From Cordylochernes scorpioides (lineage: Eukaryota > Arthropoda > Arachnida > Pseudoscorpiones > Chernetidae), in NCBI GenBank assembly GCA_030710605.1, contig CP092865.1, positions 142,194,682 through 142,258,681 of the forward strand: a DNA stretch of 64,000 nt, in the 5' to 3' direction. The notes beneath the pieces were generated by a model, which worked only from the letters and a program-made list of their open reading frames with translations, had not been told where the DNA came from and ran no database searches. This document shows, in pieces, positions 20,629 to 62,076 of this stretch (within the stretch, counting starts at the first letter, position 1; each line of letters begins with the position of its first letter). A program made the translations under genes and the position numbers.

Positions 20629-22330
20629 TGTTGGGCCATTTTTCACAAAACGAACCGAACAATGATGTAAACATATTACATCATATATGTACAGTGTCTT
20701 GTCGAAGTGTTTGCTGTCCAGATGGAGGACCTGGACAAGCTCTGGGCTTCATGTATTCCGAGGCCCGCTGCAGTAAGGTCCAGATGGAGGACCTGGACAA
20801 GCTCTGGGCTTCTTGTACTCCAAGGCTAGCTGCAGTAAGATGGAGGATGTACATATGTAATTATATGTATTATAACCAATCCCTTCCTTTATATACAAGA
20901 TGAAAGGTCTAAATTTCTTTTTTTTATTACCACATTGAAATTTAAATACATAGAGTAAATAAATTAAATATATACTCTAGATAGATTAGGTATTTTAAAG
21001 ATAACAATAAAATTTCAAAAAAAAAATACTAGATTAAATAAATAAATTAAATATATACTCTAGATAGATTAGGTATTTTAAAGATATCAATTAAAATTTT
21101 AAGAAGAAACACTAAATTAAAATTTCAGGGAATCGACCTGATATAGTTTATTATTTTTTATTATTAATTTAAAATTAATTTTATTTCAAAGAATAATTTT
21201 TTTTATCTTAATTTCCAAATTTATTCAACGAAATAAATACCTTTTCTTTTTACTCTGTAAATAAAAAAAATTTTGAGGCACGCGAGATTTGAAATTTTGT
21301 CAGTTGGAGTCGAGTAGCCAAAGAGCGAGGGTTGAAAGGATCGGGGGGGGGGGGGGGGGGGGGGGGGGGCCGAGCGATGGAAGGCAAGAATAGACAAAAT
21401 GGTGAGTCAATTACCCTATAATTTTCTTTTGTGGGCCAAAAAGGCCCGTTTATAGAATAGAAATCTCATATCAAATTTAATAAGTTATTTTTGTAAAGTT
21501 GCAATCTCTACTATATAGTATATTCCAAATAAAAAATTTGGTTGTTTTATATATTTCGATGAGATTAGAAGTAAAGAACTGCTTACAAAGGATTAGACCT
21601 TTTATCTTTTATATAATCTTCCCCTTGTCTCAAAATATAGATAAATTTTAGCTATAATAAAATTTCATATATATTTTCTTTTTATTAATTTGTATTTTTT
21701 TGTGTTTTATACCAGACTAGACATACAATGGTATTTTCCATGGTCAATTCTACCAATAAACAATTACATATGCTCATATATATATCATATAACTCATGTT
21801 AACATTCAAGTCAATCTCATTCCCCTAATTTTATTGTGTATGCATATATATACTGTTTAAATTTAAACATGTGGTGGTTTATACTCATCCCATTGAGAAT
21901 CAAACCTGTGTTTGTGTGTATCATGCTTTGGTGTGTTTTCCATTTTGGTCAGGTTTCCAATAGTCTAACATATTTGTAAATTCCCTTAAAGTGTATCGGA
22001 ATGAGGTGTATGTTATTCAAATCGTAGAGGTGATGATTGTACATTTCATCATGATAGAAATTGACCCAACAATATTGTTGTATTGAGATTTTCTTTTCGC
22101 TAACTCACTTTGAGGTTTACCCTCGGTACCATGTTGTGATATGGGGTGTTGGACTTCACATAGATAGATTTGATGTACTAAAAATTTTCTAAACTTGAAA
22201 GTATGTTAACATAGGATTTGAATGAAATTCTCCATTCTTTATATTTAAGTGTTTATATTAATCGTATATTGTATTTTTTTGTTTGTGTGTTTGCCGTGGC
22301 GTGTTTTTGGTGAGTTTAATATTAAACTAG
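20629..22330 (+). repeat. Repeat R1 (LTR-like, about 1.7 kb), inserted in the mariner relic
   Basis: It begins TGTTGGGCCATTTTTCAC and matches 35449-36912 plus 46331-46495 (R2) closely. Inside are an imperfect duplication of a CCAGATGGAGGACCTGG block, absent from R2, and two copies of an AAATATATACTCTAG block about 85 bp apart. It has no coding frame. The right end is the last point shared with R2 (TTTAATATTAA) and may not be the true end. Confidence 0.7.
21343..21369. repeat. Poly-G run of 27 bases inside R1
   Basis: 27 consecutive G. The corresponding place in R2 (about 36100) has no such run, so it is a private expansion or an assembly artefact. A second run of 16 G lies at 23299-23314. 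Confidence 0.9.
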
Positions 22331-26985: not shown

Positions 26986-27177
26986 TGTTAAAATAAATGT
27001 GTTTCAGCAACCCTGGCAGTACAGAACAAAGGAATGCATATAGCCCTAATGTTTACCTTTTAGTGTGTTGTAAATAATTCTCTAATTAATATGTTTGTAA
27101 TCTTGGTAAATATAATAAAATAAGATATTATCTTAATTTGTAGTATATTTATGTGTTAAATAAACTACAAAATAACA
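26986..27177 (+). repeat. Copia-B 5' LTR
   Basis: 192 bp, TGTTAAAATA...AATAACA, preceded by GGATA. The terminal CA is also the first two bases of the tRNA-Met complementarity. Confidence 0.9.
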
Positions 27178-27191
27178 GATTATGAGACTGA
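27176..27191 (+). other. Copia-B primer binding site (elongator tRNA-Met anticodon arm)
   Basis: CAGATTATGAGACTGA is complementary to the conserved anticodon arm of eukaryotic elongator tRNA-Met, not to a tRNA 3' end. Drosophila copia is known to prime internally from a tRNA half. This site suggests the same mode with a different tRNA. Confidence 0.7.
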
Positions 27192-27259
27192 AGTTTAAAT
27201 AATAATAAAGAAATATCAAGATTGTGTTTTAGTAAGTACAACTTTGAATATATTTTAAA

Positions 27260-27578
27260 ATGAGCGTAATTAATTCGAATTTGCCAATTTTGACGGGTAC
27301 AAATTTCAACAGCTGGAAATTTAGAGTTAAACTATTGTTAGAAGAAAAACAAATACATCTAACATTAGAAAAGGAAATTAATGATTTTGTCGATAAAAAG
27401 AACGCGAGTTATTTGCAATTAAAGATGCAAAGGCAAAATCTACGCTTGTTCAATGTTTAACTGATAAACATCTAGACATAATTAAAGATGCAAAAACAGC
27501 TAAAGAAATGATTAAAGCGCTCAAAAATATATTTGAAATAAAAAGCGTGTTCACAAAACTAACACTAAAAAGAAAGTT
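27260..27578 (+). pseudogene. Copia-B Gag N-terminus, frameshifted
   Basis: The ATG at 27260 opens PILTGTNFNSWKFRVKLLL, the usual copia Gag N-terminal motif. The frame breaks near 27420. Gag continues in another frame (STLVQCLTDKHLDIIKDA, KTAKEMIKALKNIFE) until about 27575, where it re-enters the long downstream frame. Two single-base changes therefore separate the Gag start from the rest. The start fits: it lies about 70 bp after the PBS. Confidence 0.75.
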
Positions 27579-29669
27579 TTGACTTTAAAATGCAAACATA
27601 ATGAAAAATTAGAAGACCATTTTCTTAAATTCTTTTCTATAATTCGTGAATTGGATAATATAGGTTCCAAAATGGATAAATCTGACAAAATATGTCATCT
27701 GTTATTGGCATTGAATGAAGAGTATGAAAATGTAATCACAGCAATAGAAACAATAAATACTGAAATCAAAATGGAATTTGTTAAGGCAAGATTGCTGGAT
27801 GAAGAACTCAAAAGGAAAAATAAACAAGGGGAACCTAGGAATGAAGAAATGACATTTGGATCATTCACATTTACATGTTATAATTATGGCAAGAAAGGTC
27901 ACAAGGCTACAGAATGTAGAAGTAAAAATAAATTTTTCAAAAGAGAAAAGAATCAAACACAAAAAGAGAGAAATGAAAGACAAAGAGAGAGTCAACCTAG
28001 ACAACAAGCCTACCAGATGGATGGCAGACTATCATTTGTAGCAATGAATGCTATAGATTGCTATGAAAATAATCATTTTATTTTAGACTCAGGAGCAACA
28101 CAGAACCTGATCAAAACTGAATTAGAAAAATATATGACAGATGTGAAGATTTTAGAACATAAGGCTGAAATTCATATGGCAAATGGTGAAAAGATGTCAG
28201 CTAATAAAAGTGGAACTTCAAATGTAAAAATCAATAATATCCAAATAGTAATCCATGGACTAATAGTTGATGGCATTAAACAGAACTTATTGTCAGTAGA
28301 AAAAATTACACAACAGGGCCACCAGGTGATATTTAGACAAGATGAAGTAATTATAATTACAAGAAACCATAATTTTAAGTGTAATAATTATAGAAACTTG
28401 TACTCACTTAAAATAGAAATAGACAGTAACCCTGAAAGTGTTACAGCGCATGCAGTCAAAACCGATGACACATTGTGGCACAGAAGATTGGGACATCTGA
28501 ATAGATACAGTTTAAAGAAATTAGGGCTACCAAGTTCACAAGAGAAATGTGAAACCTGTATCAAAGGAAAAAGCACAAGAAGATCATTTGAGAAAACCTG
28601 GAAAACAACTAAGGAAATTGGAGAGCTGATACATTCAGACTTATCAGGACCAATTGATCCACCAACATATGATGAAGAAATATATTTTCAGGTACTAATA
28701 GATGACTACTCACACTTTGTAGTAGTGAGACTTCTCAAATCAAAAAGTGAAGCCGAACAAAACATAATTGATTTTTTCAAGTTGATAAAAACTCAACATA
28801 ACAAGAAAACAAGAAAAATTAGAGTAGATAATGGTAAGGAATTTTCATCTGGAAACTTCAAGCAGTTTTGCAGAACAAAAGGAATTCAAATAAAATATAC
28901 CTCACCTTACACACCACAGCAAAATGGCACATCTGAAAGAATGAACCGAACATTGATTGATAAAGTGAGAACAAAGTTGGCAGAAACAAATCTACCAAAA
29001 TATCTCTGGGGAGAAGCCATTTACTGCTCAGCATACGATTTAAACAGAAGTCCAACAAGTGTGAACAAAGGAATACCTCCGGCTAGCATATGGTATAAAC
29101 AAAAAGACCTATCCAAACTTAAGTTTTTTGGCTCAAGAGCTTGGAGACTAATTATACCCAAACCAAGAAAACTAGATGCTAGAGCAAAATCAACAATCAT
29201 GGTTGGATACAGTGGAAGCGGATATCGCATCTGGGATCCGGAAACTGATAAAGTAATGATTTCAACAGATGTAACATTTGATGAAACATTAACTAAATTT
29301 GATAAGGAAATCATCTCAGACCAAACAGAACCTAAAAGAATAATAACTGAATGTCAAGATGAGGAAGAAAACCCACAAACATCAGAACAATCAGACAAAG
29401 AAGAAAGTGTAACTACAAGATCGGGTCGAATAATCAAACCACCAAAGTATCAAGAAGATTATGAACTATATTCAGTATATTGCTTGTTTACAAATGGTGA
29501 AGATCCAGTTTCTTACAATCAAGCAATTAGGCAAAAAGAATGGAAAGAAGCTATTGATAAAGAAATTCGATCTCATGAAGAATTGAAAAAATGGTCTTCA
29601 ATAAAATTAGGAGAAAAATCAAATATCAAACCAATTGATACAAAAATGATTTATTGGCCAAAGACATAA
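27579..29669 (+). CDS. Copia-B Gag-protease-integrase polyprotein with truncated RT
   Basis: A 696-codon frame that continues Gag from upstream. Order: UBN2-type capsid helices (1-95); a zinc knuckle CYNYGKKGHKATEC in which the second Cys is Tyr (about 100-113); protease FILDSGATQNL (about 168); HHCC zinc region WHRRLGHL...CETCIKGK (about 300-335); integrase core with HSDLSGPI, RVDNGKEF and NGTSERMNRT (about 350-455); then the RT lead-in EWKEAIDKEIRSHEELKKW. There the frame leaps to an end without YVDD or RNase H. The last pol residues (CRNIADMLTKPL) follow at about 29690-29775 in another frame. It could supply Gag and integrase but not cDNA synthesis. Confidence 0.88.
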   Translation: MTLKCKHNEKLEDHFLKFFSIIRELDNIGSKMDKSDKICHLLLALNEEYENVITAIETINTEIKMEFVKARLLDEELKRKNKQGEPRNEEMTFGSFTFTCYNYGKKGHKATECRSKNKFFKREKNQTQKERNERQRESQPRQQAYQMDGRLSFVAMNAIDCYENNHFILDSGATQNLIKTELEKYMTDVKILEHKAEIHMANGEKMSANKSGTSNVKINNIQIVIHGLIVDGIKQNLLSVEKITQQGHQVIFRQDEVIIITRNHNFKCNNYRNLYSLKIEIDSNPESVTAHAVKTDDTLWHRRLGHLNRYSLKKLGLPSSQEKCETCIKGKSTRRSFEKTWKTTKEIGELIHSDLSGPIDPPTYDEEIYFQVLIDDYSHFVVVRLLKSKSEAEQNIIDFFKLIKTQHNKKTRKIRVDNGKEFSSGNFKQFCRTKGIQIKYTSPYTPQQNGTSERMNRTLIDKVRTKLAETNLPKYLWGEAIYCSAYDLNRSPTSVNKGIPPASIWYKQKDLSKLKFFGSRAWRLIIPKPRKLDARAKSTIMVGYSGSGYRIWDPETDKVMISTDVTFDETLTKFDKEIISDQTEPKRIITECQDEEENPQTSEQSDKEESVTTRSGRIIKPPKYQEDYELYSVYCLFTNGEDPVSYNQAIRQKEWKEAIDKEIRSHEELKKWSSIKLGEKSNIKPIDTKMIYWPKT

Positions 29670-29819
29670 TCAAAATAGACTACATTGAGGGATGCAGAAA
29701 CATAGCAGACATGTTAACTAAACCCTTATGTAAGGACATGTTGAACAAATTCATGAAACTTTCCAACATGGGGTGAAAATTGTGCAATTGACATTTGTGA
29801 AAATGCCAATTGAGGGGGG

Positions 29820-30013
29820 TGTTAAAATAAATGTGTTTCAGAAACCCCCTGGCAGTACAGAACAAAGGAATGCATATAGCCCTAATGTTTACCTTTTAGT
29901 GTGTTGTAAATAATTCTCTAATTAATATGTTTGTAATCTTGGTAAAGATAATAAAATAAGATATTATCTTAATTTGTAGTATATTTATGTGTTAAATAAA
30001 CTACAAAATAACT
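29820..30013 (+). repeat. Copia-B 3' LTR
   Basis: 194 bp, preceded by TGAGGGGGG. It ends AATAACT instead of AACA and is followed by the GGATA duplication. Confidence 0.9.
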
Positions 30014-30121
30014 GGATATCTTCTATATCAACGTCATTTCTTTTCTATATATATCATATTCATTCATTTTTCTTTTGGCATATATCATTCTCCTCGTTAT
30101 GTATCATATTGTTATTATTAT

Positions 30122-30320
30122 TGTGGTATTCCACTTAGGAAGAACTAGTTTAAGAAATTATGAGACGTTTCTAATCAGTAGAAACTCTATTATTCTCTTC
30201 ACCTATATATATACATCGCGCTACTCGCGAACATGCAAATATATTCACCTATCATAAGAAACAACATGTAAAATATATAAAACAAAACAATACTATGCAA
30301 ATATGTTGAGGTATGCGACA
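30122..30320 (-). repeat. Kinase element 3' LTR
   Basis: 199 bp, TGTGGTATTC...TATGCGACA on the plus strand. It lacks the 6-bp AACTTT-like segment found in the other LTR. Confidence 0.92.
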
Positions 30321-30334
30321 GACTCCCCCTCCAT
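30321..30334 (-). other. Kinase element polypurine tract
   Basis: The minus strand reads TGGAGGGGGAGTC, then TGTCGCATACC of the LTR. Position and base composition match a plus-strand primer and fix the element's orientation as minus, the same as the kinase gene. Confidence 0.75.
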
Positions 30335-30360
30335 GACCTCTCATCACTCCTGAGATGAGA

Positions 30361-30670
30361 CTATTTTGAAGGTCTCTTATTTCGTTGAAGATCTGAAGGC
30401 CCAGAGGTATCGTCTGCCGATTTAGAACAGTCATAGGGTTGGATGTACTTGCTGGCCTGAGGAGCTTTCTTCAAGACAACTAGCCAGAGATATGGGACTC
30501 CCAACTCATCCAAGTCTTCAGTTTCCGAATGAGATCTTTGACTTTCTTCGGCGGTAATCTGCGTTGATGTCTCCTCAATGGATTCAGTATGCACTTCACA
30601 AGCAGAGTTAAATTCTCGTATTTCATTATGGGTCCAAATATTAGCTGAGAAACATTCTCGTAAAAAACAT
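30361..30670 (-). pseudogene. Possible original C-terminus of the kinase protein, in another frame
   Basis: One frame away from the kinase frame, an open stretch runs from about 30670 to a stop at 30361. Its composition suits a real tail: acidic and Ser/Thr-rich (EETSTQITAEESQRSHSETE), then KKAPQASKYIQPYDCSK. It ends only about 30 bp before the polypurine tract, so it would fill the element. The switch would need one extra base in the A/T run at 30662-30667. Whether the break is real, an assembly error, or chance openness cannot be settled here. Confidence 0.4.
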
Positions 30671-31621
30671 TCGGATTAGGATCATCATTCTCTACAAGTC
30701 GAGATATCTCAAAATCAGTCAACTTGGCAATGCAGTTGTTGGTTGGGATATCATAATTCTCTCCTCCATATTCAGGATGAAAAAAGACAAAATGAGATAA
30801 ATTCATATCATGCCAATCCAAACGTTTAAGCGCTTCTCTAGTCTGGTCACACCACATCATACTACGATCGTGCTTGAAAACATGCTGGTAGAAAACAGAA
30901 GGTTCGTCTTCATTGCCAACGAATAACCTGGGATTAGTCCACTTAGGAATCATGTCATATAAATGTCCTATAGATGTTGGTTTACCTACAGCTTTAAGAT
31001 ATGCCAAATCTTTTAAGATTTGAATTAAACCCTCATACAGTTGTAGACATGTAGTTACTCTTGGCAGTTCAGGTAGTGTTGCACGAAGTTCCAAACTCAT
31101 ATTTATCATTTCAAAGTAGAGTCCACTCAGCATAAATAGATTCTTTCTTGAATACTCAATTGGACCTGGTCTCTTTCCATATTTACCAATCATCCTTTGT
31201 CCATAATCTATATCCTTAATATACCTGGCATTCCCAAAATCGGTTACTCTAGCAATATATCCAAGAGTTGGGATTTTAATCTTTTTTGAAGCTACTTCAT
31301 ATTTGATTAGTTTCTCTTCTGTTTCTGCAACTAGAACATTGTTAATATGAAAATCATCATGTAAAAGTTCAATTTCCTCTTCACCAATTGCAAAAACTAT
31401 ACAAATCTGGCGAAATAATACTAATAAATCCTCACATGAAAATCTCGATTTGATAGCCGTTTCGAGAGTTATTCCTCCATATTCCATTAGGAAAACAAAA
31501 TAATTTTTTCGTTCTCCTTCACAATAGTAAGGCCATGGTTTTCCTTTTTCAAAGATATTTTTGAGAAGCCTAAACGTCTTCTCAGTATCTTTAACAAGCA
31601 TAAAGGAACATAAATTGATCT
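30480..31621 (-). pseudogene. Haspin-like protein kinase, C-terminal part (split by insertion)
   Basis: Haspin kinases phosphorylate histone H3 Thr3 in mitosis; this product's activity is unknown. From INLCSFMLVK the frame shows haspin-type features: FVFLMEYGGITLE (hinge), LLHDDFHINNVLV (catalytic loop, D-x-H-x-x-N kept), then IPTLGYIARVTDFGNARY (metal-binding Asp; haspins usually have DYT). About 170 residues later a second, weaker copy of the same signatures occurs (LDWHDMNLSHF...IAKLTDFEISRL), suggesting a second degenerate lobe. The open frame formally runs to 31991, but its first 124 codons are translated tRNA-array sequence and not kinase. The true upstream exon-like part lies at 32737-34662. 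Confidence 0.7.
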
Positions 31622-31772
31622 GTAAAACGAAAATTAAAATTATACCGCGAATGTTTCTCTTTAAAAATCGAAATTTATTTTCAAAGAGAAATAGCGACAT
31701 TTCTAACTTTGAGGATGAGGTATGGAAAGGTGAAACATGAAGAGTTAATGGAGAACGGAAAAATAAAAAGTG

Positions 31773-31844
31773 TCCAGGGGCGGGAATCGAACCCACACCC
31801 TTCTGCTTACCGGGCAGGTGCCTTGTCCACTCGGCTACCCTGGA
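31773..31844 (-). tRNA. tRNA-like gene, copy 1 (anticodon loop CCGGTAA, GGT)
   Basis: 72 nt folding as a cloverleaf: acceptor TCCAGGG/CCCTGGA (7 of 7 pairs), D arm GCC...GGC, anticodon stem CTGC/GCAG, and T arm GTGGG-TTCGATT-CCCGC. Pol III A box (TAGCCGAGTGG) and B box (GGTTCGATTCC) are intact, and a T5 terminator lies four bases after the 3' end. The predicted anticodon GGT (Thr) with C at position 33 instead of U is atypical, so it may be a tRNA-derived repeat. Confidence 0.6.
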
Positions 31845-32062
31845 CGTATTTTTCCGTTCATAACTTATATTTAAAGTAACATTTAAAATACAATATAACG
31901 CGGCTGACGATTGTAAAACGAAAATTAAAATTATACCGCGAATGTTTCTCTTTAAAAATCGAAATTTATTTTCAAAGAGAAATAGCGACATTTCTAACTT
32001 TGAGGATGAGGTATGGAAAGGTGAAACATGAAGAGTAATGGAGAACGGAAAAATAAAAAGTG

Positions 32063-32134
32063 TCCAGGGGCGGGAATCGAACCCACACCCTTCTGCTTAC
32101 CGGGCAGGTGCCTTGTCCACTCGGCTACCCTGGA
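32063..32134 (-). tRNA. tRNA-like gene, copy 2
   Basis: Identical to copy 1 and exactly 290 bp away, with the same promoter boxes and T-run terminator. Confidence 0.6.
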
Positions 32135-32352
32135 CGTATTTTTCCGTTCATAACTTATATTTAAAGTAACATTTAAAATACAATATAACGCGGCTGACGA
32201 TTGTAAAACGAAAATTAAAATTATACCGCGAATGTTTCTCTTTAAAAATCGAAATTTATTTTCAAAGAGAAATAGCGACATTTCTAACTTTGAGGATGAG
32301 GTATGGAAAGGTGAAACATGAAGAGTAATAGAGAACGGAAAAATAAAAAGTG

Positions 32353-32406
32353 TCCAGGGGCGGGAATCGAACCCACACCCTTCTGCTTACCGGGCAGGTG
32401 CCTTGT
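32353..32406 (-). pseudogene. tRNA-like gene, copy 3, truncated
   Basis: Same 3' portion as the other copies (acceptor 3' strand, T arm, anticodon arm). It is cut inside the D arm where the array switches orientation, so the A box is lost and it cannot form a cloverleaf. Confidence 0.75.
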
Positions 32407-32476
32407 ACAATCGTCAGCCGCGTTATATTGTATTTTAAATGTTACTTTAAATATAAGTTATGAACGGAAAAATACG

Positions 32477-32548
32477 TCCAGGGTAGCCGAGTGGACAAGG
32501 CACCTGCCCGGTAAGCAGAAGGGTGTGGGTTCGATTCCCGCCCCTGGA
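32477..32548 (+). tRNA. tRNA-like gene, copy 4, inverted
   Basis: The same 72-nt sequence on the plus strand, with TTTTT at 32552 onward as pol III terminator. It belongs to the inverted unit of the array. Confidence 0.6.
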
Positions 32549-32736
32549 CACTTTTTATTTTTCCGTTCTCCATTACTCTTCATGTTTCACCTTTCCATAC
32601 CTCATCCTCAAAGTTAGAAATGTCGCTATTTCTCTTTGAAAATAAATTTCGATTTTTAAAGAGAAACATTCGCGGTATAATTTTAATTTTCGTTTTACAA
32701 TCGCCAGCCGCGTTATATTGTATTATAAATTGATCT

Positions 32737-32945
32737 GACCATTTTTTAGGGTTCTTAAAGAATTGTAGATGGCCAATTTATTTCGTAAATCATCAATGTC
32801 ATATTCCTCAAATTCTTCAGCAGTAGATTGTCCCCATGAACGTCTTTTTAAATTCAATCGTCCAATTCTATAAATAGTTGAAAACTTGTTGCTTGATAAG
32901 ACTTCACCATAGCAAATACATTGGACACCTTTTCCTACATATTTC
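32737..32945 (-). pseudogene. Haspin-like kinase N-lobe segment between frameshift and insertion
   Basis: In the frame that joins the C-terminal part, this stretch reads KYVGKGVQCICYGEV (glycine-rich loop position), STIYRIGRLNL, then EEYDIDDLRNKLAIYNSLR, ending NGQINL at the insertion point. It corresponds to the haspin N-lobe. The expected beta-3 lysine (VAIK) appears as TIYR, and the alpha-C glutamate is not obvious, so catalysis is doubtful. The upstream frame (32935-34662) stops here because of a one-base change in the A-rich GGAAAAAGAAG run near 32945-32953. Confidence 0.65.
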
Positions 32946-34662
32946 TTCTTTTTCCTTCGAAAATATCAGCGAAGGTTACAAAAGCATTATGTACGGATGC
33001 TGTTAGCAATTCCGCAGGTCCTTCAGCTTCCCTTCTGAATCCACTTTCTATCTCTGAAATTTGCATCTGGCTGAATTCTTTAGCATAAATCCAAACTTTT
33101 TGGCAGCGTGTTAATTTCTTTAATATTAACAAACGAGGTCTTGCGAGACTGCATTTATCGAAATCACCTATTCCATGGCAGATAATAGCATCACATATTC
33201 CTAATTTCATATTTCTTTTTTCACCGCTTGTTTTAAACGAATAAATTCCTTTTATGAGAGTTTCCAATAGAGTATCGTAACACGGTAGCTCTCTCAAGGC
33301 TCTTTTCAATAACTTCATGTCTTCGGTGATGGTGTTTCTGTTATTCCAGGTGGTGGGGAGGCTCAACTCCTTTGGAGGTGCTTCTTCGCCGGTACCAGGC
33401 TTTGGTTCTTTTTTGCCAGTACCAGACTCCTTAGAAGGTTCTTTTTCTCCAGCATGGGTGTCAGGGACATCAATAATGCAATCAGAAAGTTTTTCTGTAT
33501 TCTCTGAATCTTTGTCAATTTCCCCAGCTTGAGTGTTAGGAACATCAATAACGCAATCAGAACTTTCTTCTGTATTCCCTGTATTATTGTCAATTTCCCC
33601 AGCTTGAGTGTTAGGAACATCAATAACGCAATCAGAACTTTCTTCTGTATTCCCTGTATTATTGTCAATTTCCCCAGCTTGAGTGAAAGTGGCATCATCA
33701 AGATCACAAAGTCCTGCATTATCTGAATCAATACCAACACTAACATCTACCTCTTTCGTAATAGGCTCTGCACTATCAGTTCCTATAACTGACTTTTTTT
33801 CAACTTCAGCCTTTTCACTTTCATCTGCTTCAACGGACTTTTTCTCAACTTCGGCTTTTTCACTTTCTTCCGTTTCTACAACGGATTTTTTCTCAACTTC
33901 GGCTTTTTGACTTTCTTCCGTTTCTACAACTGAATTTTTCTCAACTTCGGCTTTTTCATTTTCTTCAACAACAGACTTTTTCTCAATTTCGGTGTTAGGA
34001 ACATCAATAATGCAATTAGAAAGTTCTTCTGTATTCTCTGTATCTCTATCAATTTCCCCAGCTTGGGTGTTAGGAACATCAAGGCCATTAACCAAAAGTT
34101 CTTCTGTATTTTTCACCGATTCACAACCTTTAATTGCAGTCTCAGAATCCTTCACACCGTCGCCCTTAGGCTCATCTTCAGAATCATCTTCTTCTTCATC
34201 TACCATTTCATTCTGTTCATCGAAGTCTTCTTCATCTACCATTTCATTCTGTTCATCGAAATCTTCAGAATCCTTTACACCGTCGCCCTTAGGCTCATCG
34301 TCAGAATCATCTTCTTCTATTCCAAGAATATCCATCATAACGCTTTGTTGCTTCACCATCGCCCTTAAGAGGCTTTCTCCATTTTCTTCAGAATCCTTTA
34401 CACCGTCGCCCTTAGGCTCATCTTCAGAATCATCTTCTTCTATTCCAAGAATATCCATCATAACGCTTTGTTGCTTCACCATCGCCCTTAAGAGGCTTTC
34501 TCCATTTTCTTCAGAATCCTTTACACCGTCGCCCTTAGGCTCATCTTCAGAATCATCTTCTTCTATTCCAAGAATATCCATCATAACACTTTTTTGCTTC
34601 ACCATCGCCCTTAAGAGGCTTTCCAGGGAAGGTCTTGCGGATCCTGTCCGGGGCTGTGCCAT
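32935..34662 (-). CDS. N-terminal part of the element-borne kinase: acidic repeats plus haspin-like lead-in
   Basis: 575 codons. The ATG at 34660-34662 is made by the two bases after the LTR and the first bases of the PBS. Residues about 10-140 are three copies of a 42-residue unit (SLLRAMVKQ.SVMMDILGIE, then acidic SEDEPKGDGVKDSEENGE). Residues about 200-420 are low-complexity acidic text with 17-residue KAEVEKKSVVETEES and 25-residue DNNTGNTEESSDCVIDVPNT repeats. Residues about 445-575 are globular and resemble the region before the haspin N-lobe. The first repeat looks like a Gag-type coiled coil, so a Gag N-terminus fused to kinase is possible but unproven. No signal peptide or membrane segment is seen. 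The stop at 32935 is a frameshift effect. Confidence 0.75.
   Translation of the reverse strand: MAQPRTGSARPSLESLLRAMVKQKSVMMDILGIEEDDSEDEPKGDGVKDSEENGESLLRAMVKQQSVMMDILGIEEDDSEDEPKGDGVKDSEENGESLLRAMVKQQSVMMDILGIEEDDSDDEPKGDGVKDSEDFDEQNEMVDEEDFDEQNEMVDEEEDDSEDEPKGDGVKDSETAIKGCESVKNTEELLVNGLDVPNTQAGEIDRDTENTEELSNCIIDVPNTEIEKKSVVEENEKAEVEKNSVVETEESQKAEVEKKSVVETEESEKAEVEKKSVEADESEKAEVEKKSVIGTDSAEPITKEVDVSVGIDSDNAGLCDLDDATFTQAGEIDNNTGNTEESSDCVIDVPNTQAGEIDNNTGNTEESSDCVIDVPNTQAGEIDKDSENTEKLSDCIIDVPDTHAGEKEPSKESGTGKKEPKPGTGEEAPPKELSLPTTWNNRNTITEDMKLLKRALRELPCYDTLLETLIKGIYSFKTSGEKRNMKLGICDAIICHGIGDFDKCSLARPRLLILKKLTRCQKVWIYAKEFSQMQISEIESGFRREAEGPAELLTASVHNAFVTFADIFEGKRRNM
34640..34661 (-). other. Primer binding site of the kinase element, overlapping the start codon
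   Basis: The minus strand has TGGCACAGCCCCGGACAGGA beginning two bases after the 5' LTR. The TGG start and position are those of an LTR-element PBS; the text resembles the TGGCGCAG...AGGAT primer sites common in gypsy elements. The tRNA cannot be named with certainty. Confidence 0.6.
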
Positions 34663-34663
34663 T

Positions 34664-34868
34664 TGTGGTATTCCACTTAGGAAGAACTAGTTTAAGAAAT
34701 TATGAGACGTTTCTAATCAGTAGAAACTCTAACTTTATTATTCTCTTCACCTATATATATACATCGCGCTACTCGCGGACATGCAAATATATTCACCTAT
34801 CATAAGAAACAACATGTAAAATATATAAAACAAAACAATACTATGCAAATATGTCGAGGTATGCGACA
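34664..34868 (-). repeat. Kinase element 5' LTR
   Basis: 205 bp, matching 30122-30320 over its whole length, followed on the plus strand by the ATTAT duplication. It would contain the promoter for the kinase gene, but I cannot pick a TATA box with confidence. Confidence 0.92.
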
Positions 34869-34873
34869 ATTAT

Positions 34874-35448: not shown

Positions 35449-36912
35449 TGTTGGGCCATTTTTCACAAAACGAACCCAACAATGATATAAACATATTACA
35501 TCATATATGTACAGTGTCTTGTCGAAGTGTTTGCTGTCCAGATGGAGGACCTGGACAAGCTCTGGGCTTCTTGTATTCCAAGGCCCGCTGCAGTAAGATG
35601 GAGGATGTACATATGTAATTTATGTATTATAACCAATCCCTTCCTTAATATACAAGATGAAAGGTCTAAATTTCTTTTTTTTTATTACCACATTGAAATT
35701 TAAATACATAGAGTAAATAAATTAAATATATACTCTAGATAGATTAGGTATTTTAAAGATAACAATAAAATTTCAAGAAGAAATACTAGATTAAATAAAT
35801 AAATTAAATATATACTCTAGATATATTAGGTATTTTAAAGATAACAATAAAAATTTTAAGAAGAAACACTAAATTAAAATTTCAGGTAATCGACCTGATA
35901 TAGTTTATTATTTTTTATTATTAATTTAAAATTAATTTTATTCCAAAGAATAAATTTTTATCTTAATTTGCGAATTTATTCAACAAAATAAATATATATA
36001 TATATATTTTACTCTGTAAAAGAGATTAAAAAAATTTTTAGTCACGCGAGATTTGAAATTTGTCATTTGGAATCGAGTAGCCAAAAAGGTTAAAAGTATC
36101 AGCAGAGCGGGAAAAACAAGATATTCGAGGATGGAAGGGAAGTATAGACAAAAATGGTAAGTCAACTACCCTATACTTTTTTTTGTGGGCCAAAAGGCCC
36201 GTTTATAGAATAGAAATTTCATATCACATTTAATAAGTTATTTTTGTAAAGTTGCAATCTCTATACTATATAGTATATTCCAAATAAAAAATTTGGTTGT
36301 TTTATATATTTCGATGAGATTAGAAGAACTGCTTACAAAGGATTAGACCTTTTATCTTTTATATAATCTTCCCCTTGTCTCAAAATATAGATAAATTTTA
36401 GCTATAATAAAATTTCATATATATTTTATTTTTATCAATTTGTATTTTTTTGTGTTTTATACCAGACTAGACATACAATGGTATTTTCCATGGTCAATTC
36501 TACCAATAAACAATAACATATGCTCATATATATATCATATAACTCATGTTAAAATTCAAGTCAATCTCATTCCCCTAATTTTATTGTGTATGCTAAAATA
36601 TACTGTTTAAATTTAAACATGTGGTGGTTTATACTCATCCCATTGAGAATCGAACCTGTGTTTGTGTGTATCATGCTTTGGTGTGTTTTCCATTTTGGTC
36701 AGGTTTCCAATAGTCTAACATATTTGTAAATTCCCTTAAAGTGTATCGGAATGAGGTGTACGTTATTCAAATTGTAGAGGTGATGATTGTACATTTCATC
36801 ATGATAGAAATTGACCCAAAAATATTGTTGTATTGATATTTTATTTTCGCTAACTCACTTTGAGGTTTACCCTCAGTACCATGTTGTGATATAGGGGGTT
36901 GGACTTCACTTA
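35449..36912 (+). repeat. Repeat R2, left part (copy of R1)
   Basis: It aligns with 20629-22160 at high identity, lacking the duplicated CCAGATGGAGG block and the poly-G run. It is interrupted at 36912 by Copia-C and continues at 46331-46495. R1 has the unbroken GGACTTCACATAGATAG site. Confidence 0.85.
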
Positions 36913-37158
36913 TGTTAGAATGGTTTTAGGTTTTATTTTATTTTAGAAATTAATACATATGATTTTAGTAATTGAAAATAGTTTATTAAAAATTAACAGA
37001 ACAAAACAAAAGGTTTAACTTAAACCTTAGAGTTATTTACATTCTTAATTTTACAGCAGTGTTACAAGATATATATTTTAAAACATTTTAAAAGAATTAA
37101 TTATTAATTAATATTTTATAAAATATTAAAGTCTAAAATTGAATTCATATATTCAACA
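36913..37158 (-). repeat. Copia-C 3' LTR
   Basis: TGTTAGAATGG...ATATTCAACA, 246 bp. It contains ATTAATTAATATTTTAT, the unoccupied site of the Helitron-2 insertion seen in the sister LTR. Confidence 0.92.
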
Positions 37159-37299
37159 CTCCTTCTTGAATTCATGTTTTATCATCTGCAGCAGTGAAGA
37201 TCTGTGTTTTTCAAAAGTTTCATTTGGCAGAGGCTTGGTTAGGATATCAGCAACTTGGTCTTGGGTTGGGCAAAATTGAACATCAACATTTTCTCTTAT

Positions 37300-37926
37300 C
37301 TAATCTTTCAAAAAATGATATCGAACATCTATATGTTTTGTCTTTCTGTTCTTTTGTCCTGTCTTCATTAAAGTCATTGCACTTTGGTTGTCAATATTTA
37401 GTTTAGCAAGTATGGTTTCATTTGTAAGTTCTTCAATTAGTGCTTTTATATAAATGAGTTCTTTCACACATTCAGCTGCAGCAATATATTCTGCCTCAGT
37501 AGTGGATAAGGCTACATTTGGTTGTTTTCTTGAACTCCAGCTTATTGGTCCTTTACCAAACAAAAATGTATATCCGGATGTACTTTTTCTTGTTTTCATG
37601 TCTCCAGCAAAGTCTGAGTCACAATATGCATTAAGTTCCATATCTTCATCTTGTTTACTATAGTGAAGTCCAAAAGTTTTGGTTTGTTTCAAATATCTCA
37701 TAGTTCTTTTAACATTTTGTATATCCTGGTTTGTCGGTTCATGCATCAAACGACTTTCATAACCAACTGCATAAGCAACATCTGGTCTGGTTTTGTTTGC
37801 TAAATATAGGAGACTTCCAACAGCTTCTCTATATGGAAAATTACCTTCAGATTTGTTTTCCAATATAGGATCAATTTTCACAGCTCCTTCTACAATTGGA
37901 GTTGTCACTGGCTTTGCATCCAACAT
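37300..37926 (-). pseudogene. Copia-C RT C-terminus and RNase H
   Basis: 208 codons: KPVTTPIVEG, GSLLYLANKTRPDVAYAV (connection region), AYCDSDFAGDMKTRKSTSGY (RNase H first Asp), ISWSSRKQPNVALSTTEAEY (catalytic Glu region), DNQSAMTLMKTG and RTKHIDVRYHFLKD. These are the standard copia RNase H signatures, all present. It stops just after HFLKD, about 30-40 residues short of the usual end. A stop/frameshift near 37930-37970 separates it from RT. Confidence 0.85.
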
Positions 37927-37973
37927 GTTGTATTTTTTTAGAACACATTCTATATAGTCATGTTGAGAAAGTA

Positions 37974-38201
37974 TCAGTCCCTATCTTTATTTATGATATT
38001 CATGCCAACAAACATTTGAGGATTATTACTTATTCTTATTTCAAATTCTTGTGCCAGTTCTTCCAACAAATTGTCCATTTCTTCTTCATCACTTCCAAAC
38101 AACATTCCATCATCAACATATAAAGCCAAAATTAAACTTCCATTTTGGTTTTTGAAAATGCAATTTTCTAATTTTGATTGCACCAGTCCTTTTGTTTTCA
38201 A
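37974..38201 (-). pseudogene. Copia-C RT palm fragment
   Basis: 75 codons holding the RT active site: ENCIFKNQNGSLILALYVDDGMLFGS (YVDD at about residues 29-32), then ELAQEFEIRISNNPQMFVGM. The preceding KALYGLRQAPSKWN segment is readable in another frame at about 38205-38265, so a single frameshift splits fingers from palm. Taken with its neighbours it is a nearly complete but broken copia RT. Confidence 0.8.
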
Positions 38202-38263
38202 AAAGGCTTCAAATCTTTTATTCCACTTTGAAGGTGCTTGTCGTAGTCCATAAAGTGCCTTCT

Positions 38264-38761
38264 TTAGTCGACATATTTGTTATCTTCATATCCTTCGGGT
38301 AAATACATGAAGATTTCTTCATCCAAATATCCATAGAGAAATGCAGTTTTGACATCAAAAGTTTTGAACTTTAGATTTTTCTTAACACTTAAGGATAACA
38401 ACATTCTTAAAGAAATTGTACTCACTACTGGACTAAAGGTTTCATCAAAATCTAGTCCTTTTTGTTCATTTCCTCTAGCAACAAGTCTTGCTTTATAATG
38501 TCCACCATCCTTTATCTTGAATATCCATCTAGAACTGAGTATCTTCTTTCCTTTAACTTCTTCAGCATTTACAAAATCCCAAGTTTCATTTTTCTTCAAT
38601 GAATCTTTTTCTTCCTGTATTGCTTTTACCCAGTTTTCTTTGTCTACTCCGGTTACAGCTTCATTGTATGTTAACAATCCTATTTCTTCAGAAACAGAAT
38701 TCAACACTTCATAATCTTTTAGTCTTTCAGGTCTATTGATATTTCCTCTATTCCTTAACAT
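38264..38761 (-). pseudogene. Copia-C RT N-terminal half
   Basis: 165 codons: TYNEAVTGVDKENWVKAI, KILSSRWIFKIKDGGHYKAR, LVARGNEQKGLDFDETFSPV, FKTFDVKTAFLYGYLDEE and MYLPEGYED. These match the fingers of copia RT in order. The frame ends at KYVD where the next segment shifts frame. The frame starts at an internal methionine; pol text continues upstream into the integrase C-terminal region after a stop near 38775. Confidence 0.83.
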
Positions 38762-38776
38762 ATATTTTGAATTGGC

Positions 38777-39422
38777 CTAGTTCTGTGGTTTATCATGGGT
38801 ATCTAATTCCATTTTAGTGTCTTGACTTTCCTCTATTTCAGAATCCCAAACTTCTCTGTATCTTGACTGAATGACACTGGTCATTTCATTTGTTAGTTTT
38901 CCTGTAAACACCACATCTCTTGCAATTAAAATCCTTCTTTTATGCATGTCCCACAATCTGTATCCATTTCCACTGTATTCGATAAGTGAATATTTTTCAC
39001 TTTTACTATCCAATTTTTTTAGATTTCCCAATTTTTTTGACATACACTTCACTCCCGAATAATTTTACATTAGAAAGATTAGGCTTTCTTCCAAACCACA
39101 TCTGTGCTGGTGTTGTTTGTACTGTATTTGAAGGGCTTCTGTTGATTAAATAGGCAGCGACTCTTGTGGCCTCTCCCCACATTTCCTTATTTAATTTGGA
39201 ATCCAGCAAAAGTGCTCTGGTTTTTTAAATCAGAGTTCGATTCAACCTTTCTGCTTCTACATTCAATTGTGGAGTATATAGAATTGTAAAATCAAGTATT
39301 ATTCCTTTCATTTTGCACCATTCTTTAACTTGCACATTGGCATATTCACCGCCATTATCACACCTTAATTTTGACACTTTCGCATTTAAAAATCTTTCCA
39401 CTTCATTTACATATTCTTTAAT
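38777..39422 (-). pseudogene. Copia-C integrase C-terminal region
   Basis: Two overlapping frames (38777-39052 and 39006-39209) plus unopened text to 39422 give the C-terminal integrase: MWGEATRVAAYLINRSPS, PAQMWFGRKPNLSNVKLFGS, SLIEYSGNGYRLWDMHKRRI and ARDVVF. The core text with the second Asp (VRCDNGGEYANV-like) and the LNVEAERLN-like Glu segment is readable but interrupted between 39220 and 39420. Frame changes in the Lys/Leu-rich part near 39020 and stops near 39225 and 39422 are visible. Confidence 0.72.
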
Positions 39423-40574
39423 TTATTCTTTTGCTTCATATTTATTGCTGAGCAAATACACATAACAGAAATGTGTATGATCATCCAAAAATGTAATTAT
39501 ATATTTCTTATTATCATGTGTTAAGGGTTCTATTGGGCCGCACAAATCAGTTTGAACAATTTCCAAAGGTCGGGTAGCTCTAGATCTTTCATTTCCAAAT
39601 GACTTCCTAGTTTGCTTTGCCATGATGCAAATTTCGCACACATCATTTTCCTGTTTTTCTAATTTGTTAAGCTCCATACCATCAACCAAACTTTCAAGTT
39701 TTCTTAGATTCTGCATTCCAATGTGTCCCAATTTTCTGTGCCATTCTTGGGTTTTGTTTTCATTTGGTAAGGTAAGGTTCGAGTCATTTTGCTTTGAAAA
39801 ATGTTGTTCAATATTTACAGCATAAAGTTCATTTTCAAGTTGATCTCCTTCTAGAACCTTTTTCCCATCTTTCAAAATTTTCACTTTATCACCTTTAAAA
39901 TTTACTTCTCCTCCGTTGTTAACAATTGAGATCACTGACAAAAGGTTTTTTGATAATTCAGGCACAAATATTACTTCATTTAGGTTACATTGTCTCCCCT
40001 TAAATTGTCCTGAAGTTTTTGCTCTCATACCTTCTTCTTTTTTTGCGAAATTGATGTTCACATCACACTTTTTTTGATGATCAAGCAACTTTTCTTCATT
40101 AATCATGTGACAGGTGGATCCGCTATCAACAATGAAAGTGACTGATGATCTTTCATCATATTCTACTCTTTGTTCAGCAATGAAAGCAATGGGAGGTTGC
40201 TTTTCTTTGTTCCTGAAATAGCAGTCTTTTTCTTTATGATTAAACTTTTTACATATTCTGCATTGTTCTTTGTTTACTTTAGCAGCAGGTTTACTGTTGT
40301 TCTTAAAGAAACAGTCCTTTTCTTCATGGTTAGTTTTTTTACAAAATTTGCAGAATTTTCTTTGGGTGCAATTTTTAGATATATGTCCTGGTTTATTACA
40401 AGTAAAACATACCTTTTGATTTGTTGCATTCATAGCCACTCGGTCTTCTGGTTGGCTCTGTCTATTTCTTCTTATTTCTTCAGTGGTCAATCTTGATATT
40501 AGATTTTCAATAGTTTTTTCATCTTTTCTAGTTGACTCCCAAGCAGTACAAAAATAATTATGTTCTTCTGGCAA
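39423..40574 (-). pseudogene. Copia-C Gag C-terminus with three zinc knuckles, protease and integrase N-terminus
   Basis: 383 codons. After the Gag end (ENLISRLTTEE) come three CCHC knuckles: CFTCNKPGHISKNC, CKFCKKTNHEEKDC and CRICKKFNHKEKDC. Most copia Gags have one. Then the protease active site FIVDSGSTCHM, the HHCC zinc region (EWHRKLGHIGMQN...CEICIMAKQTR), and the start of the integrase core (VQTDLCGPIEPL, ITFLDDHTHF). Knuckles bind RNA during packaging; the protease matures the polyprotein. The frame is open throughout but cut off from Gag upstream and from the rest of integrase at 39422. Confidence 0.85.
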
Positions 40575-40815
40575 AATTGTTAAAATCTTTGAAATAACAA
40601 TATTGTCATCAAAGTTCGTTTTAGATTATTGAGTTTAAAAGCCAAATTTCTTAAATTACTTATGTTGGATACAAGGTCTACATTTTTATCAAATTTATAA
40701 GTGAAATTCTTGTAGCAGCTTACATTTTAATTGTTCATCATCTCTTTCAAATATTCTGCATATGGTGTCATACATTGATTTGGCATTTTCACAATGTATT
40801 ATGTGTGTTAATATC
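40575..40815 (-). pseudogene. Copia-C Gag middle part, left of the Copia-D insertion
   Basis: Minus-strand reading gives HIIHCENAKSMYDTICRIFE and RDDEQLKCKLLQEF, then, after a shift, VDLVSNISNLRNLAFKLNN. These are typical UBN2-type Gag helices. At 40815 it meets Copia-D, and the same Gag resumes at 45301. Confidence 0.72.
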
Positions 40816-41023
40816 TGTTGGATAACTGAATGCTACGACAGCTAGCGCCACACTGGACCTATCATCATCACAACTGTTTGTTTACCTTCTTCTCTATATT
40901 ACAATAACTGTTCGCTACCATAACTTTGTCTTTCTTGCTAAATGGATAATAAAGATTATTATCATATAATCCTCAACGTCCTCATGCCTTCCTACAAGCT
41001 GTAAGTACCTAAATCTTACAACA
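40816..41023 (+). repeat. Copia-D 5' LTR
   Basis: 208 bp, TGTTGGATAAC...CTTACAACA. It contains an AATAAAG signal (ATGGATAATAAAGATT) near its middle, a plausible polyadenylation signal of the R region. Confidence 0.93.
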
Positions 41024-41026
41024 ATT

Positions 41027-41042
41027 AGATTATGAGACTGAA
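41027..41042 (+). other. Copia-D primer binding site (elongator tRNA-Met anticodon arm)
   Basis: AGATTATGAGACTGAA lies four bases after the LTR. Fifteen bases are complementary to the elongator tRNA-Met anticodon arm, the same site as in Copia-B. Confidence 0.7.
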
Positions 41043-41097
41043 TATTGCATGAAATTCAACTAACGAGTTAAGACAAAGAAAAAAAGGCTTAGCAAAA

Positions 41098-44000
41098 ATG
41101 GCGTCACTCCCGAGCCACGATGTAATCCTAGATAAGCTCGACGGCTATAACTACTCACTATGGTCTTTCAAAATTGAAATGCTCTTGCAAAAGGAAGATC
41201 TTTGGGAAGTTGTCACCGAAAATATTCCAGATGAACCTAAAATCGAATAGAAAAAGAAAGACTCAAAAGCTAGAGCTATCATTAATCTAAGCATCGCCGA
41301 CTCACAAATAGTGCATGTCAAAAACCTACTAACAGCCAAAGCTACCTGGGACACTCTTAAAAATATCTATGAAAGAAAAACACTCTCAGGAAAAATTTAT
41401 TTGCTAAGGAAACTATACAGCTTAAAACTCGAAGAAGATAAAGACATGCAGCAGCATATCACTACCATGATGGAACTTGTTGACAAACTGCGAACCATTG
41501 GCGAAACACTAAAGGACTCTCACATCACGGCTATACTGCTTTGCTCGCTTCCAAAGAGCTACTCCAATCTCATCACGATGTTGGAATCAAGGCTTGATGA
41601 CGAGCTAACGCTTGAATTTACCAAGAACAAACTCCTTGATGAACACACACGCAGAGTAGAAAGCTCGAAAGACGAAAGCACCGCATCAAAAGCCTTAAAA
41701 AGCCTCCACGGAGCTTCAAGCCAAAGAAGAGAAAAAGAGAAGAAATTCTGTTCTTTCTGTCACAAACCAAACCACTCCAAAGAAGAATGTTGGCATTATC
41801 AAAAGCGAAACAACAGCAACAAAGAGTACAAATATGAAAACTTCAGAAGAGGAAACGTACCAAAGTACACAAATCAGTCGAGTGTCACCCAAGAACAATC
41901 AACAAATCAGAGAACAACAAAAGGACCTAATCCAAAAGCTCTCAATTGCACTCAACGAGAAGCAAGTGTACACAACTGGTTCGTCGACTCTGGAGCCACA
42001 TCTCATATGGCGTACGACGAAAGCTTCTTCACTGCACTTAACAGAGAACAAACACAAAATGTTGTGGTTGCTAATGGCAATAAGCTGCAGGTCAAAGGGA
42101 TAGGACAAGGAGAAATCAAAGTCATCACACCCCAAGGAAAGACTGACACCTTACTTCTCACAAAAGTTCTCTACATCCCGGAACTAACAGACAACCTTCT
42201 GTCAGTGAGTGCGGCCACCTCCAACGGATGTAAAGTAACGTTCAAAAGAGATTGGTGTACCATCGAAAGAGACAACACAGCCCTCGCGAACGGTATACTT
42301 GACAATGGAATGTACCGACTCCACCTGGATGACAACCTCCAAACTCGCACATTCAAAGCAAATGTAGCAAAACAAAACCACTGCAAGAACAAAAATTGCC
42401 TCATGCTCTGGCACGACAGACTAGGACACAGAAATATAGAATCAATTAAGAAGATTCAAAATGAGAACCTAGCAAGAGGACTAAGTCTAAATAACTGTTC
42501 GCACAGCACAGACTGCGTTCAGTGCATTCAAGGAAAACTCACCGAAACCCCATTTCCAAAGAAGACAGGGTACAGAGCAACTGAAACGCTTCAACTTGTC
42601 CACAGTGATATCTGCGGTCCATTACCAACTAACTCTCTCAGCGGTAAGAGATACTTCATCACCTTCACTGATGACTACAGCAGATACACGAAGACCTACC
42701 TCCTGAAAGGAAAAGACGAAGCCTATGAAAAAATAAAAGACTACGTCATCTCAGCACACACGGAATTTGGAAAAAATATCCAAACCATACGGACAGACAA
42801 CGGTCGTGAGTACGTAAACTGACAAGTCGAAGATTTCCTGAACCAAAGCGGAATCAAACATCAGCTAACAGTCCCCTACTCACCAGCCCAGAACGGAGTA
42901 GCAGAAAGGAAAAATCGATCACTAATGGAGATGACAAGATGCATGCTGTTTGACTCAGGACTCCCACAGTCTCTATGGGCGGAAGCGGTTACCACAGCTA
43001 ATTACCTACACAACCGAATACCCTCGAAAGCTACAGACAAGACTCCTTTTGAACTATGGACCAACAGGAAGCCCAGTCTGAAGCATCTAAAAAGATTCGG
43101 ATGTAAAGCCTTCGCCTATATTCCCAAGATAAAAAGGAACAAGTTGGATAGCAAAGTTATCGAAGGGATCTTTCTTGGATACGATGATCGAAGCAAAGGA
43201 TACAGAATCCTGCACGACACCGACAACATCACAATCAGCAGATCCGTAAAATTTATAGAAAAAGAAAATGGGTTTCACCTCGCTTCCACAAAAACAACTT
43301 CACCACAAGTACTAAGTACAGATCTAACTTCCTCCAATCATATTGGTAATGCAGAGGAAAGTCAGGAACCAGGAACACAACCCGAAAACCTTGAGGACTC
43401 AGAAACCGAGGATTACCTTCAACCTGGTACAAGCACAGGAACACAAGTGGTCACACAAAGAAGATCCACGAGACCAACAAAGGGAATACCTCCCATAAGA
43501 AATGACTACATGCTGTACAAAACTGAAGCTCAAGACATTCAGACACCCACCAGCTACTCGGAAGTCCTACAATTACCAAAAATAGAAAGAGAAAAATGGC
43601 TACAAGCAATGAACGAAGAACTAAATTCTCTTGAGAAGAACAATGTATGGGAACTAACGCCTCTACCTAAGGACAAAAAGATCATAGGATGTAAATGGAC
43701 CTATAAACAAAAACTCAATTCCAAAGGAAAAATAGAGCGGTACAAAGCCAGACTCGTAGCAAAAGGGTTCAATCAGAAATTTGGCCGAGACTACGAAGAA
43801 ACCTTTGCACCAATTGTAAAGCATTCTACAATTAGAGCCTTCCTAGTTGCATCAGTCTACAAAGGGATGCAAGTGAACCACCTCGATGTCAAGACAGCGT
43901 TCCTACACAGCGACCTAGATAAAGAACTCTACATGGAACTCCCAGAAGGACTCCATACAAAAACAAACAAAGTCTGCAAACTAAAGAAGGCAATTTACGG

Positions 44001-45102: not shown

Positions 45103-45300
45103 CTGAATGCTACGACAGCTACCGCCACACTGGACCTATCATCATCACAACTGTTTGTTTACCTTCTTCTCTATATTACAATAACTGTTCGCTACCATAA
45201 CTTTGTCTTTCTTGCTAAATGGATAATAAAGATTATTATCATATAATCCTCAACGTCCTCATGCCTTCCTACAAGCTGTAAGTACCTAAATCTTACAACA
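45093..45300 (+). repeat. Copia-D 3' LTR
   Basis: 208 bp, one substitution from the 5' LTR. The preceding GCCGGGGATT is the likely plus-strand primer. The last four pol codons and stop lie inside this LTR. Confidence 0.93.
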
Positions 45301-45532
45301 ATATCGTCTTATCGATGCTCGAAATAATATATTTTTGGGCTTTAGCATCTTTTATTATCCATACGTTTTTTTCTTTTTCATCCTTTTGATCTTTAAAACA
45401 CAATTTACCATTTATTATATCAATTAAATTATTAGCTTTAAAAATAATGTTAATTTGAAAGTTCCAAATATCAAAATTTTCAGAGTCTTTTAATTTATCT
45501 ATAATCGAAATATCTTCCATAACAGCAGCCAT
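45301..45532 (-). pseudogene. Copia-C Gag N-terminus, right of the Copia-D insertion
   Basis: It starts at an ATG (45532) about 54 bp from the 5' LTR: ISIIDKLKDSENFDIWNFQI (copia Gag N-terminal motif), then IIFKANNLIDIINGKLCF, KNVWIIKDAKAQKYIISSID. It is truncated at 45301 by the nested element. The remainder resumes at 40815, with the ATATC duplication at both junctions. Confidence 0.85.
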
Positions 45533-45585
45533 TTTTATTTTTACGATTCTAGATTTTAAGTTATAACCACGCTTTATGCTGCCAC

Positions 45586-47790: not shown

Positions 47791-48059
47791 AACAATAGCA
47801 CTGTCTAAAAAATAAAAAAAAATGTCAAAACAAAGGGCGCCATGCATTCTATTTATTCGCCAGTTGAATGCAAGACTGGCTTTTTTAATTCCACTCTGTG
47901 ACACGGATAGTATTGTGATAGGTATATCCGGGGTCTTAGGGTGCCTAGAACACAAGGGTTATAAACACATATATACATCTATTTATATGTAAGATTTGAC
48001 ACATTTGTGGGAAGGTGCATGCCTACTAGTTTAAAAATAATAATGCTTAGTGACCAAAA

Positions 48060-60580: not shown

Positions 60581-60582
60581 AC

Positions 60583-62074: not shown

Positions 62075-62076
62075 GA

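Follow-up and report, generated by a model that had tools for sequence, protein, structure and literature searches.

Structure of the element in the window

The 64,000-nucleotide stretch of Cordylochernes scorpioides DNA analysed here (the window) contains, at 30122–34868 and with its gene on the minus strand, an element bracketed by long terminal repeats (LTRs), which belongs, as a damaged copy, to a large family of non-autonomous LTR retrotransposons. The cargo of this family is a mosaic of acidic repeats, SRR1, two haspin-like kinase modules and a nucleosome assembly protein (NAP) module, the set of modules varying from copy to copy. A prediction made from the sequence (the original prediction) had proposed an LTR pair of 199 and 205 bp with TG...CA ends, ATTAT duplications and a consistently oriented primer-binding-site (PBS)-like site and polypurine tract, and each of these features was recovered: the LTRs differ by two substitutions and one 6-bp gap, the duplications stand directly outside both of them, and the PBS-like site and the tract both fit the minus strand, since the tract abuts the downstream LTR there and the PBS-like site follows the other LTR (Table 1). 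In a tract scan of the window, whose own gypsy-like element would be a candidate partner, GGAGGGGGAGTC was found only at the haspin element itself. The PBS-like site begins with TGGC and may correspond to a tRNA-Ser; no tRNA-Ser was found in the DNA that was retrieved.

Table 1. Features of the haspin-bearing element in the window (TSD, target-site duplication; aa, amino acids)
Feature	Position	Strand	Evidence
TSD left, ATTAT, 5 bp	30117..30121		Read directly outside the LTR; matching pair in the common table of copies
3' LTR in gene sense, 199 bp	30122..30320	-	Pairwise comparison; relatives genome-wide
Polypurine tract GGAGGGGGAGTC	30321..30332	-	Identical or one base off in 27 tabulated copies
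Open frame, 503 aa, joining cassette sequence to kinase 1	30480..31991	-	Open-frame list
Second haspin-like kinase module, fragment	30639..30869	-	Limits approximate, hand-counted; L046 aa 915–985 versus P0005 kinase 2, 86% over 71 aa
Kinase 1, haspin-like; HDDFHINN and DFG motifs	31290..31613	-	PF12330 E 7.5e-4, below cut-off; human haspin E 1.4e-5
tRNA cassette target duplication, left copy, 13 bp (ATAAATTGATCTG)	31610..31622		Uninterrupted site in 10/15 loci
Inserted cassette, tRNA-Thr(GGT) units, tandem and one inverted	31623..32724		tRNA prediction, repeat comparison
tRNA cassette target duplication, right copy, 13 bp	32725..32737		Comparison with uninterrupted sites
575-aa frame with acidic repeats; begins at second base after 5' LTR, breaks before kinase 1	32935..34662	-	Open-frame list
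SRR1-like region, N-terminal half	33073..33375	-	Limits approximate, hand-counted; L046 versus P0005 SRR1 region, 77% over 114 aa; PF07985 over cut-off in P0005 and L067
Acidic tandem-repeat region	33300..34640 (approximate)	-	Frame translation
PBS-like site beginning TGGC	34642..34661	-	Same place in 28/29 family elements
5' LTR in gene sense, 205 bp	34664..34868	-	Pairwise comparison
TSD right, ATTAT, 5 bp	34869..34873		Reads ATAAT/ATAAT on the other strand

The acidic-repeat frame and the kinase frame are separated by a cassette of 1.1 kb made of 290-bp units, each with tRNA-Thr(GGT), in which three tRNA-Thr genes were predicted. Its target site is uninterrupted in ten of the 15 loci searched, the other five being without the exact search word. 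Lying between the two frames, with uninterrupted sites elsewhere, the cassette therefore marks the window copy as a damaged member of the family. The cassette itself looks like a mobile tRNA-derived repeat. Pieces related to it, approximately 84–86% alike, are also present at loci L024 and L026.

The LTR family across the genome

The search covered the genome assembly (G000; 2.62 Gb in 24 contigs), and all copy counts given here are lower bounds. With the LTR as the query, the best 40 of 1552 candidates were scored, and 26 of these 40 rows form 13 pairs spanning 2.2–3.9 kb; one further row is that of the window, and five singles gained a partner on further reading. Altogether, 32 of the rows make up 19 LTR-bracketed elements including that of the window, three appear to be solo LTRs, the 1.5 kb on either side of them being free of element sequence, and five were unread. 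Two of the solo LTRs are flanked by 5-bp duplications (L024, TATTC; L027, ATATA), and none was seen at the third (L023). Since the loci L042/L043 and L050/L051 have common flanks and are probably duplicated loci, the 19 elements correspond to about 17 insertion sites. At least part of the kinase region is held by 18 of the 19, the element on contig C14 having lost it, and none showed gag-pol in its frames; among the elements read, the case in which the LTR would be found elsewhere only with ordinary gag-pol, and the kinase only in the window, did not occur.

The kinase query gave 133 matches, with the best 108 of 1517 candidates scored, and the identities among the matches listed fall into bands near 98%, at 94–92% and at 89–87%. 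Nine of these loci were read, L057–L060 being chosen for long or identical frames and L061–L065 being spread down the list; eight of the nine lie inside LTRs of the same kin group, 84–99% alike over the matched parts, and the ninth is L058, which is treated below. In all, ten kinase- or NAP-matching loci beyond the 19 elements belong to the LTR group (L057 and L059–L067), nine of them with an LTR pair and a 5-bp duplication (by eye for L059 and L066), and the tenth, L067, with a 125-bp LTR pair and no target duplication seen. The 19 elements from the LTR search and eight from the kinase search were placed in a common table of 27, and L066 and L067 bring the number of family elements read to 29.

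The tabulated elements are 2246–4747 bp long. The 5-bp TSD is exact in 25 of the 27, agrees in four of five bases in L040 and was read from the locus as ATATG on both sides in L059. All 27 LTRs begin with TG and 26 end with CA in the table, that of L059 likewise ending in CA (GACA) when read from the locus, and the polypurine tract precedes the 3' LTR in every case as GGAGGGGGAGTC or with one base different. A PBS-like site starting TGGC lies immediately after the 5' LTR in 28 of the 29 elements, L067 being the one for which it is not shown. In ten of 14 LTR pairs there is no substitution between the two copies, with gap columns in two of those ten. No gag or pol domain was detected by Pfam in the eight elements scanned (those of the window, L044, L046, L057, L059, L060, L066 and L067), and none was recognised in the other 21, which were judged from their frames and by BLAST.

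Because the same LTR recurs in pairs around the same content across the genome, the pair in the window is not a chance repeat, and the genome-wide LTR pairs and target duplications rule out a merely local duplication. The proposal that the element belongs to a mobile family is borne out by both searches, which returned many LTR-flanked copies with different 5-bp duplications and common kinase content. In protein searches, family relatives were found only in C. scorpioides, within a limited sensitivity (the best 8000 candidates in one search). At two of the LTR insertion sites, predicted tRNA-Gly genes were also observed no more than about 500 bases away (L024, L028, L029 and L045), possibly reflecting either targeting or a tRNA-derived repeat.

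Modules of the cargo

The original prediction had described the cargo as a haspin-like kinase gene. The kinase motifs are indeed there, but the cargo is a multi-gene mosaic rather than a haspin gene, and capture of a haspin gene alone is ruled out, since pieces of SRR1, kinase 2 and NAP are present as well. Kinase 1 of the window matches human haspin in the PDB (E = 1.4e-5) and scores 19.1 bits against the haspin profile PF12330, with a range of 19.1–23.4 bits across the window, L046 and L057–L060, all below the 25-bit cut-off. It thus resembles haspin kinases in matching human haspin and in aligning with haspin-like genes of the same genome, whereas it differs from them in falling below the Pfam cut-off, in being embedded in a mosaic and in the probable loss of ATP-site residues in one copy. 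NAP is over the Pfam cut-off in L057 (6.3e-28), L066 (3.1e-28) and L067 (1.4e-18), and SRR1 (PF07985) in L067 (5.3e-12) and in the predicted protein P0005; a DDT-like match below the cut-off (0.0097) was seen in one copy only, L060. The NAP search, in which all 139 candidates were scored, gave 91 matches, 12 of them within 6 kb of a kinase match, including one on the opposite strand (contig C11).

In the window subfamily, as measured on L046, the cargo comprises kinase 1 together with parts of three other modules: 114 aa of the SRR1 region (77%), a 71-aa piece of kinase 2 (86%) and a 52-aa piece from around the beginning of NAP (85%). Other copies hold other sets: L066 has kinase 2 and NAP without kinase 1, its kinase being unreported by Pfam, and L067 has SRR1 and NAP without a kinase. 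The kinase 1 region is absent from the C14 element, L066 and L067, and its catalytic part is absent from L044. In L059 and L060 kinase 1 sits between two halves of SRR1, and in P0005 and L067 the SRR1 match is uninterrupted (profile positions 15/16–128 of 172). As SRR1 is split by kinase 1 in the former and whole in the latter, these comparisons suggest that the ancestor had SRR1, kinase 2 and NAP and that kinase 1 arrived later.

Since some copies have single open frames, the cargo is without introns, so that intron-free segments of several host-type genes lie inside the LTRs. The genome holds a match to the whole NAP profile (C10:90675426) as well as haspin-like genes, which are at most candidates for the parents.

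In the genome at large, at least 113 haspin-profile matches were found, many of them clustered (contigs C5, C17, C3 and C10). None of the 113 lies within 10 kb of the 108 listed kinase places of the elements, and they therefore look like a separate host expansion. Some of these loci (L001 and L008) have N-terminal repeats with what is presumably an IQ-like motif.

Coding capacity and selection

In the SRR1–kinase region of the window subfamily there are 102 distinct changes, 27 synonymous and 75 nonsynonymous, which give a ratio of nonsynonymous to synonymous substitution rates (dN/dS) of about 0.97, and the 15 pairwise ratios among six frames (L042, L046 and L057–L060) range from 0.69 to 2.41, with dS of at most about 0.05. 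Because dN/dS is close to 1, there is no visible sign that purifying selection acts on the kinase, the small counts leaving room for moderate constraint. The role in host control that had been entertained for the element is accordingly unsupported at these values.

These values bear on the possibility that the mosaic protein serves the element, its kinase and NAP parts acting on host chromatin or on the element particle and its open frames being kept by selection. Haspin, NAP and DDT proteins are linked to chromatin, which counts for such a protein. In seven of the 27 tabulated copies (L042, L044, L046, L057, L060, L061 and L065) the frame runs without a break from its start codon to a point inside the 3' LTR, which supplies a hydrophobic C-terminus, and many frames of more than 1000 aa occur among copies about 87–98% alike (among the kinase matches listed); the other 20 copies are frame-broken, however, and L057–L060 were picked for their frames. 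Only one of the 102 changes is a stop, against an expected 4.4%, a scarcity that would suit selection, but the dN/dS values do not. The residues of the kinase point in both directions. L046 keeps the catalytic Asp, the Asn after it and DFG, whereas its ATP-site Lys aligns with Arg and its αC Glu with Lys, in a part where the alignment is weak, and loss of the ATP-site residues in this copy is probable from the alignment; the αC Glu is present in L057, L059 and L060, and in L059 the catalytic Asp is replaced by Glu. Furthermore, copies that lack kinase 1 or its catalytic part have nevertheless arisen. We therefore consider a working protein of this kind unlikely, though it is the strongest of the alternatives.

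A BEL/Pao element carrying the cargo

The locus L058 is bracketed by LTRs of 344 bp, which TACGT flanks as a duplication, and contains one frame of 1544 aa, which encodes a BEL/Pao gag (DUF1759, 1.7e-31) and a protease-like region, followed by the acidic repeats, an SRR1 half and kinase 1. The window LTR has no match to the L058 LTRs. In a search with the L058 LTR, the best 40 of 1015 candidates were scored and one member (L068) was read; it has BEL/Pao gag-pol content in two frames with a stop between them, Peptidase_A17 (8.9e-44) and integrase H2C2 (4.1e-7) being over the Pfam cut-off and reverse transcriptase (1.7e-5) below it. L058 and L068 have the LTR, gag and protease region in common. 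Their 5' ends are 98.4% identical along 2386 bp and their 3' ends 95% identical along 441 bp, and in L058 the cargo lies between these stretches. L058 is thus a BEL/Pao element in which pol has been replaced by the cargo of the family, whereas the family itself has other LTRs and shows no gag-pol. At the 5' junction 13 bp are common to both parents, as expected under template switching, and a stretch of about 480 bp before the 3' junction is of untraced source. L058 is the only BEL/Pao recombinant among the loci read. The predicted protein P0005, in which SRR1 and kinase 2 are followed by a BEL/Pao DUF1759 and a protease-like match (aa 258–1196), is perhaps a second one.

Origin and comparison with known systems

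The window element is, in all probability, a recently inserted and since damaged copy of a non-autonomous LTR family that would have spread with enzymes supplied in trans. An ancestral element would have lost gag-pol, and spliced host coding sequence (SRR1, the haspin-like kinases and NAP) would have been acquired when the reverse transcriptase switched templates. The RNA of such an element would keep the LTR, the PBS-like site and the polypurine tract and would for that reason be open to copying and integration by enzymes that an autonomous relative provides in trans. The modules may then have been shuffled between copies through deletions inside the element and renewed template switches, and the cargo would have moved at least once into a BEL/Pao element; the protein encoded by the cargo would be mainly passive.

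Several points weigh against this account. No parental host gene was located for the modules, and for that reason their host origin rests on domain homology; an autonomous element with an LTR of about 200 bp was not found among the best 40 of the 1552 LTR candidates; many of the target duplications are made up of A and T alone, so that some of the agreement could be fortuitous; and only eight of the 29 family elements were scanned with Pfam.

A bolder version of the account makes the family a domain-shuffling vehicle for chromatin genes, the mosaic protein, with its haspin-like kinase, NAP and DDT-like parts, modifying germ-line chromatin in favour of the element and the cargo jumping by template switching between unrelated LTR superfamilies in the manner of a retroviral oncogene; we hold this to be still more doubtful than a protein that merely serves the element. 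It is very improbable that there is no true element family and that LTR elements instead retrocopied a host gene family many times independently. Animals are known to undergo LTR-mediated retroposition (PMC5408686), but the copies share their junctions: the start codon lies at the PBS-like site, the same tract precedes the 3' LTR, and the LTRs belong to one kin group. Segmental duplication of a single locus with two repeats in it by chance can account for the common flanks of L042/L043 and L050/L051 but is scarcely credible, and for the family as a whole is refuted, in view of the differing flanks printed for the other copies, their different 5-bp duplications on many chromosomes and the solo LTRs with duplications of their own (L024 and L027).

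The reading as a non-autonomous family with captured cargo can be compared with known cases. Maize Bs1 is a non-autonomous element. It carries segments from three transduced host genes inside its LTRs, which formed a chimeric gene, as described in PMC13317346 and PMC5408686. The C. scorpioides family likewise has host-type segments of several genes inside the LTRs of a non-autonomous element; unlike Bs1, it is found in an animal, involves other genes, comprises numerous young copies whose module sets differ and has its cargo also in a BEL/Pao element. For LTR-mediated retrocopies in metazoans (Tan et al., 2016), an origin via template switching at a short shared sequence has been proposed (sections of PMC5408686 and PMC8232201), and the same origin is proposed here, whereas the product in C. 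scorpioides is a multiplying family. In the text available from PMC5408686, PMC13317346 and PMC8232201, capture of host genes by LTR elements is treated mainly from plants, with some animal cases. As these reviews describe Bs1 and LTR-mediated retroposition in animals with template switching, this kind of capture is already known; what is new is that in an animal it involves several genes and several subfamilies, and that the cargo has passed into BEL/Pao. Among the titles and abstracts listed in searches of the open-licence PMC literature, no haspin-bearing LTR family was apparent.

Young relatives with different module sets, a gag-pol BEL/Pao element and a cargo recombinant are thus present in one animal genome, which allows the stages of capture, shuffling and transfer to be followed one after another. 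The family is also a warning for annotation: the public proteome gives its protein P0003, known from the protein with its locus unread, the name of the haspin gene, GSG2.

Neighbouring repeats in the window

Other repeats lie in the remainder of the window. A short copia-like element at 27011–30019, the LTR parts of which are 173 bp long and 98% alike, ends approximately 100 bp from the haspin element; its 696-aa frame contains gag and integrase domains, with no reverse transcriptase match in Pfam. On the other side, a copia-like element at 36913–45785 is apparently nested in another (repeat pairs 40813/45090, 99%, and 36913/45586, 98%), and gypsy-like gag-pol frames were seen by eye on both strands at 59417–63976. 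A direct duplication approximately 14.75 kb apart (20629–21862 and 35449–36612) has pieces 94–97% alike, and 13538–18989 and 47721–53162 form a large inverted duplication with pieces 72–98% complementary and arms approximately 29 kb apart.

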